Positions 29,037 through 39,026 of a stretch of DNA of 64,000 nucleotides are shown piece by piece. The number at the start of each line of letters is the position of its first letter. The first letter of the stretch is position 1. This stretch comes from Aquificaceae bacterium (lineage in GTDB: Bacteria > Aquificota > Aquificia > Aquificales > Aquificaceae). The stretch lies in assembly GCA_026981975.1 (NCBI GenBank), contig JALSHV010000008.1, forward strand, positions 1-64,000. Reading direction: 5' to 3'. Both the position numbers and the translations under genes were made by a program. The notes beneath the pieces were generated by a model. The model had not been told where the DNA came from. It did no database searches and was given only the letters and a program-made list of their open reading frames with translations.

Positions 29037-32000
29037 ATGGATCTTTTAATAATTAGAAGAGGGTGTCCCAACTGCGGAGAATCCATTGACGATACCAGAC
29101 TTACAGAAGGTTTTCCCTGCAACAGATGTATACAAGATACCGGCAAGGATATATGTGAATATCTTGAAAAGGTAAAAAAGTTAAAAGGATTTAAATCTTT
29201 TTGCGAAGTTGAAAAAAAACTTAACTCTTTTGAAAACTTCTTTGAGAAATCCATAGGATCAAAACCGTGGAGTCTTCAAAAATTATGGGCTAAAAGAGCG
29301 TTAAAGGGAAAATCTTTTGCAGTGATTGCTCCCACAGGAGTAGGTAAAACAACTTTTGGTTTTATTTTTTCTCTATTTACAAAACCGAAGTCTATTCTTC
29401 TATTTCCCACAAGATTATTAGCAATTCAAGCAGATAAAAAGTTAAAGGAACTTTCAGGGAAACTATCCTTAAAAAAGGAAATACTACTGTATAAACCTTC
29501 AAAGAAAATAAGAGAAAAATTTCTCAATGGAGATTTTGATATCTTGTGTGGAACAAATATGTTTCTTCACAAAAACTTTGAGCATCTCTTAAAATTTAAA
29601 TTCAGTTTCTTGTTTATTGACGATATAGATTCTTTTCTAAAAAGCTCTAAGAACATAGAAAACTTGTTTAAGCTTTTAGGTTTTGAAGAAAAAGATATAA
29701 AATTGGCACTTAAAGAGAAGAAGAACTTACAGGAACAAGAAAAGCTTGCCCGTTTAAGGGAAAAAAAGCGGGAAACAGTTTTAATTGTTTCCTCAGCTAC
29801 TGCAAAACCAAAAGGAGGAAGAATAAAACTCTTCAAAAACCTTCTTGGATTTGATGTGCAGAAAGCAAATCTTACTCTAAGAAACATAGTTGATGTTGCG
29901 AATCCTGTTAAGAACTTAGAAGAAGCTCTTTATTTATCCAGCGATCTTATAAAGCAGTTGGGAAAAGGTGGACTTGTTTTTCTCTCCGTTTTCTACAAAA
30001 AAGAAAAAGTTAAAGAGGTTGTTCAATTTTACAGAGAAAAAGGTATTAAAACAGTGAGCTACCTTGAACACAAACCAGCAGAACTCAACAGGATTCTTGC
30101 AGAGGGTAACTTTGATGTAGCTGTAGGAATTTCTCACCTTTCAAATCCCCTTGTAAGAGGAGTTGATCTACCACACATAATCAGATATGCTCTGTTTCTG
30201 GATATACCCAAGCATATATTTCCCGTAGATTTTAACGTTCAACCTTCCAGACTCCACTCCCTTTTGTTAACTGTTTTTAATCTTTTAGAAAAAGAGGACC
30301 GCCTTAAGGCGGTAAGTTATATAAAGTATCTGAGAAAATACTTGACTTTGAAAGAAGAACAACTTGATAGATATCCCCGTATAAAGGAAAAAGTCTTTGA
30401 GATTGGAAATTTCCTGAAGGAAAAGCTGGAAGACAGAGAATTTCTAAGAAAAATAGAAAATTCTGAAGACGTTTCCCTTAAAAAAATAGACAATCAACTC
30501 TGTATAGTGGTGGCAGACGCAGCTACTTACATACAAGCTTCTGGAAGAACTTCCCGCTTCACAGCAGGGGGTATGACAAAGGGTTTATCCGTTTTATTTT
30601 ACGAAGATGTTAAAGCTTTTAATTCTCTGAAGAAGAGACTTTCAGCTTACTTTATGCAAACAGAAGTGGAGTTTAAAGATTTAAAAGATATAGAGCTAAC
30701 TTCACTTCTTAAAGAGATAGATAGGGACAGAAATAAAGCTCTTGCTTTTATTGAAAAGAAAAACATTGAAAGTGTTAAAGATCTCTTTCGCACAGCGCTG
30801 ATTGTAGTAGAATCCCCTGTTAAAGCAAAAACCATTGCGGGATTTTTCGGAAAGCCTCAGATAAGACTTATAAAAGATTTACCTGTCTACGAAGTTCCTC
30901 TGGAAAACAAATTACTTATGATAACCGCTTCTATGGGACATTTATTTGATATAGTGACGGATAAAGGTTTCTTCGGTATTTTGGACAACAACGGAAAGTA
31001 TGTTCCCCTTTACGATACTATAAAAAGATGTAAAAGCACAGGATTACAACATACAGAATTATCCTATCTCAGAAGAAAATGTCCGGATTCGGTAGAGGAC
31101 AAGATAAACACTGTTGAAGCTTTAAAAGAAGTAGCTCATGAATCAGATGAAATTTTTATAGCTACAGATCCGGACGCGGAAGGAGAAAAGATAGCTTACG
31201 ATCTTTTCCTTATGCTAAAACCTTTTAATTCTGATATAAAGAGAGCTGAGTTTCACGAAGTAACCCCTAAGGCTTTTAGAAAAGCTTTAAAAGAGTATAG
31301 ACAAATTGATAAAAATTTAGTAAAAGCTCAAATTGTAAGAAGAATTCTTGACAGATGGGTGGGTTTTTCCCTATCAAGAATTCTGTGGAAGATATTCGGT
31401 AAAAACTGGCTTTCAGCTGGAAGGGTTCAAACACCTGTTCTTGGCTGGATAATACAGAGATATAAGGAATCCCGTCTTAAAAAAGGGGAGATTCTGCTAC
31501 AGATAAACAACATACCTTTCAAAATTCAGATAGAGGATATAAAGCTTTGCCAAAAAGTCTACGCGGAAATTAAAGAAGACAGGCTGAAACTTATAAAAGG
31601 CTCTCAGAAGTTGAAAAATCCGCTTCCTCCTTATTCCACCGATACAATCTTAGAAGAAGCGGGAGAAAAGCTACACTTTTCCGCTGATAAAACCATGTCA
31701 CTACTACAACATCTGTTTGAATCAGGACTTATCACCTATCACAGAACTGATTCAATAAGAGTTTCCGAAGCGGGTAGATATACAGTAGCAAGATCCTATA
31801 TAGTGAACAAGTTCGGAGAAGAGTATTTCTATCCACGACTTTGGGAAGAAAAAGGAACTCACGAATGTATAAGACCCACACGCCCCTTAGATCCTACAGA
31901 CTTGAGTTTTATGATCACGGCAGAACTCATAGATCTAGAAGAGGAAGCTTTAAAGCTTTACGAGCTTATTTTCAAACGTTTTATGGCTTCTCAGATGAGA

Positions 32001-32513
32001 CCCGCTAAGGTTATAACGGGGGAACTGATCTTGGAGCTCCCGAATTTCAGTTGGAAGGAAGAAGTAGTTGTGGATACAGTAGAACACGGTTTTGATCTCA
32101 TTTATCCTACTTTTTTCCCTTTGGGAGAAGATTTCTTGAAAATTACCGCAAAGAAATTAAGAAAGGTTCCCCAAAAACCCCTCTTTACACAAGGAACTCT
32201 AATACAAGAAATGAAGAAACGTGGTTTGGGCAGACCTTCCACTTACGCTCATATAGTTCAAACTCTTTTAGAAAGAGGTTATGTAAAGGAAGTAAAGGGA
32301 AAACTGATTCCAACTAAAAGAGGTATTGAAATATACAAATACCTTGCACAGAACTACGGTGAATACGTAAGCGAAGAGCTTACAAGGAAATTAGAGGAGG
32401 CAATGGATAAGATAGAAAGAGGAGAGCTTGATTATCTTCAACCGCTCAGAGAGATATACGGTATAAAGAATATACTGTCAGAAGACACACTCGGGGAACC
32501 ATACCATGGGTGA
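29037..32513 (+). CDS. rgy: Reverse gyrase
   Basis: 1158-residue ATP-dependent topoisomerase that introduces positive supercoils; found in hyperthermophiles. Order: N-terminal zinc finger (Cys10/13/28/31), SF2 helicase-like domain with Walker A APTGVGKTTF (Lys104) and a DD-type box FIDDIDSF, a second RecA-like half, then a TopoIA domain from about 585 with TOPRIM (VVESPVKAKTIAGFFG, IATDPDAEGEKIAYDL) and the catalytic tyrosine in GLITYHRTDS (about Tyr901). A second zinc finger, present in many reverse gyrases, is not visible. Its last codons overlap the start of a 31-residue membrane peptide gene. Confidence 0.97.
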   Translation: MDLLIIRRGCPNCGESIDDTRLTEGFPCNRCIQDTGKDICEYLEKVKKLKGFKSFCEVEKKLNSFENFFEKSIGSKPWSLQKLWAKRALKGKSFAVIAPTGVGKTTFGFIFSLFTKPKSILLFPTRLLAIQADKKLKELSGKLSLKKEILLYKPSKKIREKFLNGDFDILCGTNMFLHKNFEHLLKFKFSFLFIDDIDSFLKSSKNIENLFKLLGFEEKDIKLALKEKKNLQEQEKLARLREKKRETVLIVSSATAKPKGGRIKLFKNLLGFDVQKANLTLRNIVDVANPVKNLEEALYLSSDLIKQLGKGGLVFLSVFYKKEKVKEVVQFYREKGIKTVSYLEHKPAELNRILAEGNFDVAVGISHLSNPLVRGVDLPHIIRYALFLDIPKHIFPVDFNVQPSRLHSLLLTVFNLLEKEDRLKAVSYIKYLRKYLTLKEEQLDRYPRIKEKVFEIGNFLKEKLEDREFLRKIENSEDVSLKKIDNQLCIVVADAATYIQASGRTSRFTAGGMTKGLSVLFYEDVKAFNSLKKRLSAYFMQTEVEFKDLKDIELTSLLKEIDRDRNKALAFIEKKNIESVKDLFRTALIVVESPVKAKTIAGFFGKPQIRLIKDLPVYEVPLENKLLMITASMGHLFDIVTDKGFFGILDNNGKYVPLYDTIKRCKSTGLQHTELSYLRRKCPDSVEDKINTVEALKEVAHESDEIFIATDPDAEGEKIAYDLFLMLKPFNSDIKRAEFHEVTPKAFRKALKEYRQIDKNLVKAQIVRRILDRWVGFSLSRILWKIFGKNWLSAGRVQTPVLGWIIQRYKESRLKKGEILLQINNIPFKIQIEDIKLCQKVYAEIKEDRLKLIKGSQKLKNPLPPYSTDTILEEAGEKLHFSADKTMSLLQHLFESGLITYHRTDSIRVSEAGRYTVARSYIVNKFGEEYFYPRLWEEKGTHECIRPTRPLDPTDLSFMITAELIDLEEEALKLYELIFKRFMASQMRPAKVITGELILELPNFSWKEEVVVDTVEHGFDLIYPTFFPLGEDFLKITAKKLRKVPQKPLFTQGTLIQEMKKRGLGRPSTYAHIVQTLLERGYVKEVKGKLIPTKRGIEIYKYLAQNYGEYVSEELTRKLEEAMDKIERGELDYLQPLREIYGIKNILSEDTLGEPYHG

Positions 32514-32601
32514 CATAGTGGCTCTTATAATCTTATTAATTCTCCTGCACGGTGTTCTGATCGCTTACATAAAGTTCATGAGCGGAAGACCTAATAATTA
32601 A
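32506..32601 (+). CDS. Small single-pass membrane peptide (31 aa)
   Basis: An ATG at 32506, inside the last codons of the reverse gyrase gene but in another frame, opens a 31-residue frame: MGDIVALIILLILLHGV, then LIAYIKFMSGRPNN. It is one hydrophobic helix with a short positively charged C-terminal tail, as expected for a membrane microprotein with the N-terminus outside. GGGG lies about 9 bases upstream as a weak ribosome site. The ATG overlap with the rgy stop resembles coupled genes, and it precedes the FMN-binding gene by 40 bases. No known family recognised; it could be chance, so confidence is moderate. Confidence 0.5.
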   Translation: MGDIVALIILLILLHGVLIAYIKFMSGRPNN

Positions 32602-32641
32602 AATTGAGATTGAATGTAATTTTTTATATAATGTTTCCACT

Positions 32642-33175
32642 ATGAGAGTTGTTTTTCTCTTAATCTCTTTACTAGCTATTTTTTCCTCTTCCGATGCCAA
32701 AAGATTCTATAAGCCGGAAGAAGTCCTCGGCAAACTGTTTCCGGGTGCTAAGGTGCAAATCAGGAATATAATCCTTACAAAGGATCAGAAACGGAACGTG
32801 GAAAAGTTGGGGAGAATAACCTTAGATTCAAGATTCGTTTCCTTTTACATTGTAAGGAAAGGAAGAAAGATTATCGCTTACGGTTACGTGGACACTCACA
32901 GGGTGAGAACAAGAAGTGAAAGTGTTCTTTTTGTAATAAACCCTTCAGGTAGTTTAGAACTTGTAGAGGTGTTGGCTTTTAACGAACCTTTGGAATACAT
33001 GGCGGACAAAAGTTGGCTCGTGTTGTTTAAAGGGAAAAATCTACTTAAGGATAAAATACGTCTCAAAAGAGATATACCCAACATTACTGGAGCTACTCTT
33101 ACAGCAAGGGTAATTACAAAAGCCGCCCGAAAGGCTCTTGCTCTGTGGTATGTTCTTTTCGGGAGCAAAAAATGA
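32642..33175 (+). CDS. Exported FMN-binding domain protein
   Basis: 177 residues with a signal peptide (MRVVFLLISLLAIFSSSDA) and an FMN-binding domain of the NqrC/RnfG type. The flavinylation motif is TGATLT (residues 149-154) after RDIPNI, where Thr154 would be esterified to FMN by ApbE. The HRVRTRSESVLFVINPSGSLELVEVLAF stretch is the usual beta-rich part of the domain (quoted in shortened form: HRVRTRSESVLFVI). The stop overlaps the start of the next gene by four bases (ATGA), so the flavoprotein and the membrane protein are surely one translational unit. No apbE is in the window. Confidence 0.85.
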   Translation: MRVVFLLISLLAIFSSSDAKRFYKPEEVLGKLFPGAKVQIRNIILTKDQKRNVEKLGRITLDSRFVSFYIVRKGRKIIAYGYVDTHRVRTRSESVLFVINPSGSLELVEVLAFNEPLEYMADKSWLVLFKGKNLLKDKIRLKRDIPNITGATLTARVITKAARKALALWYVLFGSKK

Positions 33176-34104
33176 GGTTTTTTATCACTTCTAATATAAA
33201 GAATAATCCTGCTCTTAGAATTTTGATTTTAGCAATCCTGACAGGTTGTTTGCTCTACTGGATAGGAAACTGGTTCTTTTATCACTCTAAATTCGGGCTT
33301 TCGTATAACAAGATGTTTTTATACTTCTTCTCCGATCCCTCCTTCCCTGAACCCTTACCTATTTCCCAACTTTTTGAAGATATTCACATAAGTATGTTTA
33401 TGGTTATTGTCCTTTGCACCCTTTTGTCCTCCCTTTTCCTTCAAAGTCAAAAAAACAAATTTCAACAAACAGTGTTAATATTAACTCTTTTTGGAACAGG
33501 TATTACAGAAGTTCTCCTATCCCTTGTAATTTACTTTATATCTCCTGTTTTTATATACGCAAAGATATTTGCGTTTTTGTTCTTTCAAATAACCTTTCTT
33601 TTGATATTCATTATTACTTTAAGGTTTTACCTCTTAGGAAAAGGAGAAACCTACACAGAAAAATCTCTTTTATATACAGTTGTTTTACTCTTTTCCACAT
33701 CAGCGGTTTTGTTTACTTTTTTGAGTTTTTTTTTATTCATCTCTAAGGTAGGAATAACCCCTCAAAGCATATCAGAGTATTACTTGGGAAATCCAACCAA
33801 GTTTATGAAACCGAAAAGTTTATCAACTCTATTGGAATCTACAGTTCCCCATCTGCTCGTAATGAGTGTTTTTATATTTACACTGATCCATTTTATTCTC
33901 TTCACTACTTTTAAAGGGAAGCTTTTGAGTGGAATTTTACTCTTTTCCTGTGCATTTTTTGAAAGCACAAGCGGTCTTTTCATAAGATTAGGTGTAGAAC
34001 CTTTTAGCTATATAAAACTTATTTCCTTCATAGGTTTCTGTGTAGGAGTGCTTTTCCTTTCCTTTAAAGTTATAATTTCCGTCGGAAGCAGTATAAAATC
34101 TTAA
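33172..34104 (+). CDS. Eight-helix membrane protein with internal duplication
   Basis: 310 residues from ATG 33172, coupled to the flavoprotein gene. I count eight membrane helices as two repeats of four. Repeat 1 has KFGLSYNKMFLYFFSDPSF then a helix with EDIHISMFM; repeat 2 has KVGITPQSISEYYLGNPTK then a helix with STVPHLLVM. The last two helices of each repeat also match (LTLFGTGITEVLLS and IYAKIFAFLFF against ILLFSCAFFESTSG and SYIKLISFIGF). I do not recognise the family. Coupled translation with an FMN-binding exoprotein suggests a transmembrane electron-transfer partner; this is inference. Confidence 0.85.
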   Translation: MRFFITSNIKNNPALRILILAILTGCLLYWIGNWFFYHSKFGLSYNKMFLYFFSDPSFPEPLPISQLFEDIHISMFMVIVLCTLLSSLFLQSQKNKFQQTVLILTLFGTGITEVLLSLVIYFISPVFIYAKIFAFLFFQITFLLIFIITLRFYLLGKGETYTEKSLLYTVVLLFSTSAVLFTFLSFFLFISKVGITPQSISEYYLGNPTKFMKPKSLSTLLESTVPHLLVMSVFIFTLIHFILFTTFKGKLLSGILLFSCAFFESTSGLFIRLGVEPFSYIKLISFIGFCVGVLFLSFKVIISVGSSIKS

Positions 34105-34111
34105 TATACAA

Positions 34112-34195
34112 GGGGGTATGGCGGAACTGGCAGACGCAGCGGACTTAAAATCCGCGGGCCTTCGGGCCGTCCGGGTTCGACTCCCGGTACCCCCA
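34112..34195 (+). tRNA. tRNA-Leu (TAA anticodon)
   Basis: Class II tRNA. Acceptor GGGGGTA pairs with TACCCCC; anticodon stem GCGGA/TCCGC holds loop CTTAAAA, giving anticodon TAA (leucine UUA). Long variable arm GGGCCTTCGGGCCG and T loop TTCGACT are present. The base following the stem is A and CCA is not encoded. It lies 8 bases before the trm1 gene. Confidence 0.95.
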
Positions 34196-34203
34196 TTGAA
34201 AAC

Positions 34204-35376
34204 ATGATCAGGATATCAGAAGGGAAAGCACAGATACTAATACCTGAAATAAGAGATATCGCTTCTTCCGATATGCCTGTTTTTTACAACCCGCACATGA
34301 AAATCAACAGAGATCTTGCGGTGCTTGCTCTTCAGTATCAGTGCGAAAGACTGGGGCGAAGATTGATGGTTGCCGATCCTATGTCCGCAAGTGGAGTAAG
34401 AGCTTTGAGATTTCTGAAGGAAACTTCTTGCATTGAAAAAGTCTTTGTAAACGATATTGATAGCCAAGCTGTTAATATTATAAAGAAGAACTTTGAAATT
34501 AACGGTATTCCTCCAGATAAATACGAAATACACGAAGAAGATGCCAATGCCTTTTTACGGAGAAAATGGGGTTTCGGATTTGATTATGTTGACTTAGATC
34601 CTTTCGGTTCACCTGTTCCTTTTATAGAATCAGTAGCCCTTAGCATGAAAAGGGGAGCAATTGCTGGTATTACTGCTACAGATACAGCACCTCTTTCTGG
34701 AACATATCCGGCAACATGTAAACGAAGATACGGTTCTTTTCCTCTCCGCAATGAATTCAAACATGAGGTGGGTATAAGAATTCTTATTAAGAAAGTTATA
34801 GAGCTGTCCGCTCAATACGATATAGCAATGGTGCCTTTGTTTGCTTATTCTCATTTACACTACTTTAAACTTTTCCTTAGGAAGGAAAGAGGAGCAAAGA
34901 TCGTAGATTCCCTTCTTAAAAAGATAGGTTTTGTTCTATACTGTTTTAACTGTTTGAACAGAGTGGTGGAAACTGATCATTTCAAGCTCAGGGAAACCTG
35001 CCCAATTTGTAGGAGTAGATTCTCCATAGGAGGTCCCATGTGGATAGGTGAACTGTGGGATAGGGAATTCACTCAATATCTGTGCGTAGAAGCTGAAAAA
35101 AGAGAAGAAATAAACAGAGAAACTAAAAAGATTTTATCCCTGATAAAGGAGGAAATGAGAGTTCCTACGCTTGGATTTTATACTCTTTCTAAGCTATCTC
35201 AAAAACTGCACATTCCTCAGCAACCACCCATAAAAAAAGCGGTTGAGTTTTTCCAAGGAGTGCGAACTCACTTTGAGGGAGATGGATTCCGAACCCTTCT
35301 ATCCCATGAGGAAATTTTAAATCTTTCTGAAAAACTTAAACTGATTTTGGAGGTGGGAAATGAAACTTCTTCTTAG
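34204..35376 (+). CDS. trm1: tRNA (guanine-26,N2-N2) dimethyltransferase Trm1
   Basis: 390 residues, archaeal/eukaryotic-type enzyme that dimethylates G26 of tRNA; the Aquifex homologue also modifies G27. Visible features are MPVFYNPHMKINRDLAVL, the SAM-binding VADPMSASGVRALRF, the catalytic DLDPFGSPVPF and TDTAPLSGTYP. A zinc-binding Cys4 follows in CFNCLNRV...CPICRS, and the C-terminal domain is a winged-helix-like module. Trm1 is rare in bacteria and characteristic of Aquificales. It follows a tRNA-Leu and overlaps the following cytochrome c gene by 17 bases. Confidence 0.95.
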   Translation: MIRISEGKAQILIPEIRDIASSDMPVFYNPHMKINRDLAVLALQYQCERLGRRLMVADPMSASGVRALRFLKETSCIEKVFVNDIDSQAVNIIKKNFEINGIPPDKYEIHEEDANAFLRRKWGFGFDYVDLDPFGSPVPFIESVALSMKRGAIAGITATDTAPLSGTYPATCKRRYGSFPLRNEFKHEVGIRILIKKVIELSAQYDIAMVPLFAYSHLHYFKLFLRKERGAKIVDSLLKKIGFVLYCFNCLNRVVETDHFKLRETCPICRSRFSIGGPMWIGELWDREFTQYLCVEAEKREEINRETKKILSLIKEEMRVPTLGFYTLSKLSQKLHIPQQPPIKKAVEFFQGVRTHFEGDGFRTLLSHEEILNLSEKLKLILEVGNETSS

Positions 35377-35803
35377 CTTGTTTGTCCTTCTGGAATTAGC
35401 AAAGGCACAGGATATTTTGGAAAAGGGTTATCAAGTTTACAAGAAAAACTGTGCCTCTTGTCATTTATTAAGTGTTCCACCAGAAAAAATGATGAAGATA
35501 AGAGAAGCAATAAAGTCAGGAAGCAAACCACCCATTAAAGCTCCTCCACTTGAAGAAGTATCAGCACGTGTTAAAAAGTTTTATCCTAAGGAAAAGGATT
35601 TCGTTGAATTTGTGGTGGACTATATAACAGAACCTTCTCAAGATAAAGGGGTGTGTTTACCTATGGCTTATAAAGTGTTCGGAGTTATGCCTCCGGTGGG
35701 TAAAACCATGAGTAAAGAAGATAAAGAAGCAGTAGCTCTGTGGCTTTACAGGAATTTCCACTACACATGGGAAGAGTTTATAGAAAAACACCCTCATCAC
35801 TAA
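35360..35803 (+). CDS. Periplasmic mono-heme cytochrome c
   Basis: 147 residues: signal peptide (MKLLLSLFVLLELAKA) then a class I cytochrome c fold with a single heme site CASCH (about residues 32-36). A methionine-containing segment such as MAYKVFGVMPPVGKTM could supply the sixth iron ligand. The C-terminal tail has WEEFIEKHPHH. SD GGAGGTGGG precedes the ATG within trm1. It probably shuttles electrons in the periplasm, for example to a terminal oxidase or from sulfur oxidation; the partner is not in the window. Confidence 0.9.
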   Translation: MKLLLSLFVLLELAKAQDILEKGYQVYKKNCASCHLLSVPPEKMMKIREAIKSGSKPPIKAPPLEEVSARVKKFYPKEKDFVEFVVDYITEPSQDKGVCLPMAYKVFGVMPPVGKTMSKEDKEAVALWLYRNFHYTWEEFIEKHPHH

Positions 35804-37572: not shown

Positions 37573-37944
37573 GAGTTCTTCAATTTCTTCTCTTGTTTGA
37601 CGAAAAGAGTCCAATGAATCTGAAGGACAATCTACGAACCAACTCTCCCTTCTTTTATGGGATAGAACAAAATCACACTGTTTTCGTGCGGAGTCACCTA
37701 TGGTAATCAGTATATCTATATTTTCATAAGGTATTTTATTTAAAGGTTTAGGATAAAGTTTCCTAAGGGGATATCCCTTTTCCTGAAGAACTTTAAAAGT
37801 AAGAGGATTCACTTCCTTTTTCGGTTCTACACCTGCTGAAAACACTTCGGCGTTGAGAGAAAGTTCTTTTACAATTTTCCGTGTTATAGATTCCGCTATT
37901 ATGCTCCTGATAGCGTTACCTTTGCTGATAAAGGCTATTTTCAT
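37549..37944 (-). CDS. ArsC/low-molecular-weight phosphatase-like protein lacking the catalytic cysteine
   Basis: 131 residues aligned with thioredoxin-coupled arsenate reductases. The P-loop is ISKGNAIRS where active enzymes have VCxGNxCRS, so the nucleophilic Cys is Ser7 (codon AGC on the minus strand). The second redox Cys is also lost (TIGDSA for the usual TxCDSA), while the third is kept in KQCDFV. The fold appears complete. Hence it should not work as a normal arsenate reductase or phosphatase. It overlaps mqnC upstream by four bases and is convergent with kdtA. Confidence 0.85.
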   Translation of the reverse strand: MKIAFISKGNAIRSIIAESITRKIVKELSLNAEVFSAGVEPKKEVNPLTFKVLQEKGYPLRKLYPKPLNKIPYENIDILITIGDSARKQCDFVLSHKRRESWFVDCPSDSLDSFRQTREEIEELLRKLFKL

Positions 37945-39026
37945 GAAAAGTATTTTATCACCCTGTAGTAAGTATCCCTTTGAGCAGGTATAAAACCCGC
38001 TCCTTTGATAGCGGATACTATTTCTTCAACTTTCGGAATGCTAACTTTAAATCCTGTAGAGGAAATTACGTTTTCTTCTATCATAACAGATCCTATATCG
38101 TTTGCTCCAAAGTGAAGGGCTACTGTTCCTATTGACATAGTTTGAGTAACATGGGAGCTCTGTATATTTTTAAAGTTGTCCAAGTAAATCCTTGAAAGTG
38201 CTAGAACTTTGAGATAATAAGAGGGACTCGCTGTATCCAAATGATCAAGAGCTGTGTTGCCTTTTTGGAAGGTCCAAGGAATGAAAGCTGTAAAGCCTCC
38301 TGTTTTATCCTGAATAGATCTGATTCTATCCAAGTGTTCTACTATATGTTCTCCTTTTTCCAAGTGTCCAAACATCATAGTAGCTGTAGTAGGAATACCT
38401 AATTCATGAGCTGTTAGATGAACTTCTTCCCACTCTTCAACACTACACTTTGCGGGAGAAATTCTTTTTCTTATTTCCTGTGACAGTATTTCAGCTCCGC
38501 CTCCTGGAATAGAAGATAATCCTGCTTCTTTCAATCTAAGGATAACTTCCCTTATACTGAGATTTTCCCTTTTAGCAATATAAACTATTTCAGGTGCAGA
38601 GAAAGAATGAATTTGAATTTGGGGAAACTTCTCCTTAACAGAAGCAATCATCTCCTCGTAGAAACTTAAAGGCAAATCCGGGTTTAAGCCTCCTTGCATC
38701 AGGAGAGTAGTTCCTCCCCAATTAACCAACTCCTTTACCTTTTCAAGGAGTTCTTCCTTTTTAAGGAGAAAAGCGTCTTTATCTGATTTATTTCTGTAGA
38801 AAGCACAGAACTTGCACTGAGACACACATATATTTGTGTAATTAACGTTTCTATCTATAACAAAGGTAACCATATTTTCTGGATTCTTTTCTCTTCTGAT
38901 AAAATCCGCAAGTATGCCAAGTGTTAGTATATCCTTCTTCAGAAGGTAAAGGGCTTCTTCTGCGGTTATTCTTTTCCCTTCAAAGATTTTATCCTTGATT
39001 TTTTCCAAGGAAATATTTCCCGTCAT
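37941..39026 (-). CDS. mqnC: Cyclic dehypoxanthinyl futalosine synthase MqnC
   Basis: 361-residue radical-SAM enzyme of the futalosine menaquinone pathway. The cluster motif is CVSQCKFC preceded by FVIDRNVNYTNI, characteristic of MqnC; also LMQGGLNPDLP, SSIPGGGAEIL, KRISPAK and TTATMMFGHLEKGEHIVEH (here 20 residues or fewer per quote). It forms the spiro-carbocycle of the naphthoquinone. Aquificales use menathioquinone, so this supplies the ring of their main quinone. Neighbouring genes do not include other mqn genes, so the pathway is scattered. Confidence 0.94.
   Translation of the reverse strand: MTGNISLEKIKDKIFEGKRITAEEALYLLKKDILTLGILADFIRREKNPENMVTFVIDRNVNYTNICVSQCKFCAFYRNKSDKDAFLLKKEELLEKVKELVNWGGTTLLMQGGLNPDLPLSFYEEMIASVKEKFPQIQIHSFSAPEIVYIAKRENLSIREVILRLKEAGLSSIPGGGAEILSQEIRKRISPAKCSVEEWEEVHLTAHELGIPTTATMMFGHLEKGEHIVEHLDRIRSIQDKTGGFTAFIPWTFQKGNTALDHLDTASPSYYLKVLALSRIYLDNFKNIQSSHVTQTMSIGTVALHFGANDIGSVMIEENVISSTGFKVSIPKVEEIVSAIKGAGFIPAQRDTYYRVIKYFS

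Follow-up and report, generated by a model that had tools for sequence, protein, structure and literature searches.

An FMN-binding secreted protein and a duplicated eight-helix membrane protein encoded as a pair in Aquificota

The gene pair between reverse gyrase and tRNA-Leu

The window analyzed here, a stretch of 64,000 nucleotides, lies on contig C8 of a 1.61-Mb Aquificota genome (G000). Between the genes for reverse gyrase (29037-32513) and tRNA-Leu (34112-34195), it holds a 31-residue open reading frame for a membrane microprotein (32506-32601, + strand), a gene for a secreted FMN_bind protein of 177 residues (32642..33175, + strand), and a gene for a membrane protein of 310 residues and eight helices (33172..34104, + strand). 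As originally predicted, the last two frames overlap: the stop codon of the FMN gene and the ATG of the eight-helix gene share 4 bp (ATGA) at 33172-33175. These two genes are a genuine pair. The microprotein, which had been proposed as a third member, does not belong to the unit; in related genomes it is tied to reverse gyrase instead, and a promoter-like site stands before the FMN gene.

The microprotein comprises a single helix, and its start overlaps the 3' end of the reverse gyrase gene. A search at E ≤ 1 finds it conserved in 12 of the 41 genomes of the window's genus, where its relatives are open frames of about 40-68 residues with the pattern DV[VI]ALIL. At loci L151, L152, L154, and L155 the microprotein lies directly 3' of reverse gyrase, followed by trm1 at L154 and L155, and away from the FMN/eight-helix pair; in relatives the two are found on separate contigs or, in the closed genome G007, 264 kb apart. 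In the window's genome, the pair sits between the microprotein and trm1. The microprotein is a real gene, and these data suggest that it is a conserved companion of reverse gyrase. The promoter-like site, TTGAGA-17-TATAAT (32604..32632, + strand), matches the consensus at 11 of 12 positions and ends nine bases upstream of the FMN start codon; two such sites were found against 1.5 expected in shuffled sequence, and we treat it as a candidate promoter that offers a lead only. A single-heme cytochrome c is also encoded in the window, at 35360-35803 (+ strand), overlapping the end of trm1. We rejected it as a candidate partner: a homolog was found near the FMN/eight-helix pair in 0 of 18 relatives' loci tested.

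The N-terminus of the FMN protein resembles a signal peptide when judged by eye, and the protein matches FMN_bind (PF04205) at 23.8 bits, above the cut-off of 22. A profile of its family retrieves RnfG chains from the PDB (9eri_G, E 1.2e-8). The original prediction singled out Thr154 of a TGATLT flavin motif. The motif is present, with its core T149-G-A-T152 at 33086..33097 (+ strand), but the acceptor is Thr152 (33095-33097): within the ApbE motif D-x-x-[ST]GA[ST] the modified residue is the last one (PMC12052999), and T152 is invariant in the FMN alignment where T154 is not. All 18 aligned sequences keep the [ST]GAT core, with G150, A151, and T152 invariant and Ser or Thr at position 149. 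The usual motif Asp is missing, its position being taken by P146 with an invariant N147 beside it. The effect of this Asp on flavinylation is reported to be minor (PMC12052999), and the RnfG of 9eri likewise lacks an Asp at the corresponding place. Given the co-occurrence of ApbE described below, Thr152 is likely to be covalently flavinylated.

Repeats and invariant residues of the eight-helix protein

The eight-helix protein was predicted to consist of two four-helix repeats, and this reading holds well. A profile-profile (HMM-HMM) comparison finds the halves homologous with a probability of 99.4% (E 5.5e-22, 145 columns). Its AlphaFold2 model (mean pLDDT 91.2, pTM 0.88) places helices at residues 13-40, 45-52, 64-89, 96-122, 125-155, 164-192, 197-205, 217-242, 250-272, and 278-309. 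When the predicted layout of the two halves is compared, the order of elements is the same in each: a transmembrane helix (TM), a short loop helix, then three further TMs. Moreover, in Hydrogenothermaceae (such as G028, G034, G090, G091, G093, G094, and G098) the halves are encoded by two separate, neighboring genes. In a tree, each repeat of the fused proteins groups with the matching split gene, first with first and second with second (support 98/97), so the duplication is older than the difference between fused and split forms, and the halves behave as an obligate pair.

Across an alignment of 32 fused homologs, the invariant side chains are H72, K131, K192, K215, H227, H240, and K282. The histidines of the EDIH and PH motifs, flagged beforehand as one His in each second helix, are thus both invariant: H72 (codon 33385..33387, + strand) lies in TM2 and H227 (33850..33852, + strand) in TM6, each toward the periplasm. 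When the repeats are aligned, however, the two fall two positions apart, which makes them near-equivalent rather than strictly equivalent. A third invariant histidine absent from the earlier list, H240 (33889..33891, + strand), lies toward the cytoplasmic end of TM6. All three are retained in the split forms, H72 in the inspected first half-proteins and H227 and H240 in the inspected second half-proteins; K131 is not retained in most split forms. Counts of loop charges suggest that both termini face the cytoplasm, which would render the conserved loops K-x-G...Y...[DN]-P and PK[ST] periplasmic and place H72, K131, K192, H227, and K282 at the periplasmic ends of TM2, TM4, TM5, TM6, and TM8, respectively. 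Hence the conserved loops and six of the seven invariant residues (K131, K192, K215, K282, H72, and H227) map to the predicted periplasmic side. The invariant histidines may mark a heme b or a quinol site, and we retain both as candidates.

Sequence searches of Pfam, NCBIfam, and the PDB returned no credible match to the eight-helix protein. The best Pfam result, Acyl_transf_3 (E 0.00097), was obtained for only two of the 32 members and is not credible. A Foldseek search of the AlphaFold2 model against the PDB gave 158 matches, none at E ≤ 0.001, and therefore points to no mechanistic relative. The family has no widely conserved Cys column.

Genomic companions and comparison with known systems

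The co-occurrence survey covered 136 Aquificota genomes, with tallies taken from listed matches at E ≤ 0.001. The eight-helix protein was found in 71 genomes, FMN_bind in 65, ApbE in 71, a porin in about 67, and a two-heme lipoprotein in 24. In every genome where both were detected (64/64), the FMN_bind gene adjoins the eight-helix gene. The original prediction gave the FMN protein the eight-helix protein as its membrane partner, in a system it did not recognize, and reasoned that homologs of the eight-helix protein should neighbor flavin or heme genes. The partnership stands, given this adjacency and the homology of the repeats, with the microprotein removed from it; a heme gene, that of the two-heme lipoprotein, is present in 24 genomes.

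FMN_bind is single-copy in 63 of the 65 genomes that have it. The window's genome has two; the second, NosR, is encoded beside NosZ and an ApbE of its own and belongs to a separate known system. This leaves another, short ApbE (contig C2, L123:5226-6038) for the FMN/eight-helix pair. This NosR is split into two proteins encoded beside NosZ (L122:13201-16502, contig C14), one of 358 residues that corresponds to the FMN domain and one of 743 residues in which the NapH-like half is joined to the copper-maturation protein NosD.

The distribution of ApbE closely follows that of the eight-helix protein: 65 genomes have both, six the eight-helix protein only, six ApbE only, and 59 neither. The Fisher p value, uncorrected for phylogeny, is 2.9e-24. 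The exceptions are mostly incomplete genomes, though G048 and G058 break the rule at 99% completeness. In 35 genomes no more than 2.5 kb separates ApbE from the porin, or no more than 7 kb from the membrane gene; in 20 of 65, ApbE is within 2.5 kb of the eight-helix gene. A frequent gene order is porin, two-heme lipoprotein (where present), FMN protein, eight-helix protein, with ApbE alongside; one full cluster, ApbE-porin-two-heme lipoprotein-FMN-eight-helix, is found in G019 (L038). In the window's genus this cluster is broken, with ApbE and porin together elsewhere (e.g. G001, G007, G011, G015, and G016) and the FMN and eight-helix genes still together. In the window's genome these genes are dispersed: the porin lies on contig C4, the lipoprotein on C10, and the short ApbE on C2.

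The porin is OprP-like, about 420-470 residues long, and has no heme motif. The lipoprotein carries two CxxCH motifs; all 24 genomes that encode it also encode the eight-helix protein, and it is missing from 47 of the 71 eight-helix genomes. Its match to P460 is weak and below the cut-off (E 0.0036), so is not relied on, and its low-confidence AlphaFold2 model (pLDDT 41.7) was not used for fold searches. In G028 (L047:10439-13159) the frame of the two-heme lipoprotein runs on into that of an OprB-like porin, giving a protein of 907 residues. This read-through, found in G028 only among otherwise unfused Hydrogenothermaceae copies, recalls the cytochrome-porin fusions of the Cyc2 type. Outside this survey, a contig scan with patterns that catch close relatives only found the family solely in Aquificota, and plasmid searches found no eight-helix homologs.

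Five classes of membrane partner were linked to flavinylation in 2021: NapH-like, MsrQ-like, PepSY-like, DsbD, and NQR/RNF-like proteins (PMC8238504). DUF4405 was added as a further class of membrane cytochrome in 2024 (PMC11334425). Searches with the Pfam models representing the five classes (PF01794, PF03929/PF16357, PF12801, PF02683, and PF03116) matched none of the 32 eight-helix members at E ≤ 1. The pair resembles RNF and NQR in having a periplasmic FMN_bind domain with an [ST]GAT-type flavin site, as in RnfG and NqrC. Unlike those systems, its membrane partner is not RnfD or NqrB (no match to PF03116), and the two FMN_bind proteins of the window's genome are the pair member and NosR, with RnfG and NqrC not among them. 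With the MsrQ-like, PepSY-like, and DUF4405 systems it shares a multi-helix membrane protein, bearing conserved helix histidines, that is encoded beside a flavinylated (in this pair, probably flavinylated) periplasmic protein (PMC8238504; PMC11334425). Those cytochromes have a four-His pattern, whereas the eight-helix protein has three invariant histidines, is built of two four-helix repeats, has no credible Pfam match in 32 members, and has no fold match in the PDB. DUF4405 in particular comprises six helices with four central histidines, and membership was rejected on helix number, histidine number, and the lack of a Pfam match. The proposed role of feeding electrons to an FMN_bind domain is also that of NapH-like proteins and of NosR, which this genome encodes as its second FMN_bind protein, but NapH-like proteins have Fe-S clusters, while the eight-helix family has neither a Pfam NapH match nor widely conserved Cys.

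Heme A synthase CtaA (6a2j) also has eight helices formed from two four-helix halves, with helix histidines, yet its comparison to the model (Foldseek E 0.83, TM-score 0.24, rmsd 14 Å) is not a fold match. As in porin-cytochrome conduits and Cyc2, these loci combine a periplasmic redox protein with an outer-membrane barrel and a c-type heme protein nearby. Such conduits place a multi-heme cytochrome in or beside a large barrel; here, heme motifs are lacking in the porin and limited to two CxxCH in the lipoprotein, which is absent from two thirds of genomes (24/71 have it), so this assignment was also rejected. On present evidence, the eight-helix protein appears to work like known flavinylation systems but belongs to none of their membrane classes. 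In the literature on Aquificota together with iron or flavinylation, we found no description of an FMN/eight-helix system.

A possible route for electrons across the envelope

Our preferred reading, held at slightly better than even confidence, is that the pair supplies the core, in the inner membrane and the periplasm, of an electron transfer system based on flavinylation, probably running from quinol through FMN toward the outer membrane and its porin. ApbE would attach FMN to Thr152 of the secreted protein, which would dock on the conserved periplasmic loops of the eight-helix protein and there, at the periplasmic face, receive electrons from the quinol pool. His72 and His227, near this face, may constitute a redox or proton-handling site, whether heme b or a quinol site. 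The reduced FMN protein could then ferry electrons over the periplasm toward the outer membrane, where the OprP-like porin, joined in some genomes by the two-heme lipoprotein, would carry them the rest of the way to an oxidant, either external or imported through the porin. The window also encodes, at 37941-39026 (− strand), a radical-SAM protein that by eye resembles MqnC of the futalosine menaquinone route; a menaquinone-type quinol pool would fit as the donor.

Iron is a plausible final acceptor, given the association of flavinylation with iron transport in other systems (PMC8238504) and the presence of FeoB near the cluster in some three lineages, but this link is weak because FeoB is universal in the phylum. 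The same observations bear on a rival in which the system is an assimilatory iron reductase: the porin would admit chelated Fe(III), the FMN protein would reduce it in the periplasm, and FeoB would import the Fe(II). We consider this unlikely. In G019, G036, G111, and G003, about 5 kb or less separates FeoB from the cluster, and FeoB is divergent beside it in G036 and at the Sulfurihydrogenibium locus L049, in keeping with the iron transporters linked to flavinylated systems in other bacteria (PMC8238504). However, its presence in all 136 genomes, including those that lack the system, makes co-occurrence uninformative, and its proximity in only about three independent lineages barely exceeds the roughly one expected from a genome-size estimate.

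Two further readings appear distinctly less probable. The eight-helix protein may not be redox-active at all, instead exporting FAD to ApbE or holding its substrate. Its co-occurrence with ApbE would suit such a role in flavin supply or maturation, as would invariant periplasmic lysines that could bind phosphate, and according to PMC9973259 the ApbE of Listeria requires dedicated flavin transporters. We nonetheless judge a supply role improbable: linkage to the FMN gene (64/64) is far tighter than to ApbE (20/65 within 2.5 kb), and ApbE is found both in Aquificota with no detected eight-helix copy, such as G088, and in E. coli among other control genomes (the eight-helix survey having covered the Aquificota genomes). 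Least probable among the readings weighed here is a reversed flow, from an external reductant through porin or lipoprotein to FMN, the eight-helix protein, and quinone. Aquificota are lithotrophic, the parts fit either direction, and the read-through of lipoprotein into porin in G028 is reminiscent of Cyc2-type proteins, but that fusion occurs in a single genome and the FMN of FMN_bind proteins is normally reduced by quinol or NADH.

If electrons do pass from quinol to the FMN protein, the eight-helix protein could represent a new fold class of inner-membrane quinol:flavin oxidoreductase which, together with the porin, would give Aquificota a flavin-based trans-envelope route in place of multi-heme cytochromes. 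We advance this broader proposal tentatively, as possible but doubtful. Surveys of flavinylation have left many FMN_bind proteins with no known membrane partner, and the eight-helix family looks like a further membrane class beyond the five of 2021 and DUF4405; profile searches would miss it because no Pfam model covers it. In most Aquificota genomes with the eight-helix protein, the FMN protein of the pair is the sole FMN_bind protein found, and the flavinylation target of ApbE in Aquifex and its relatives becomes directly testable. The natural split and fused forms can, in turn, show what each half does. Overall, this system occurs in about half of the sampled phylum and points to a new route for electrons out of the cell.
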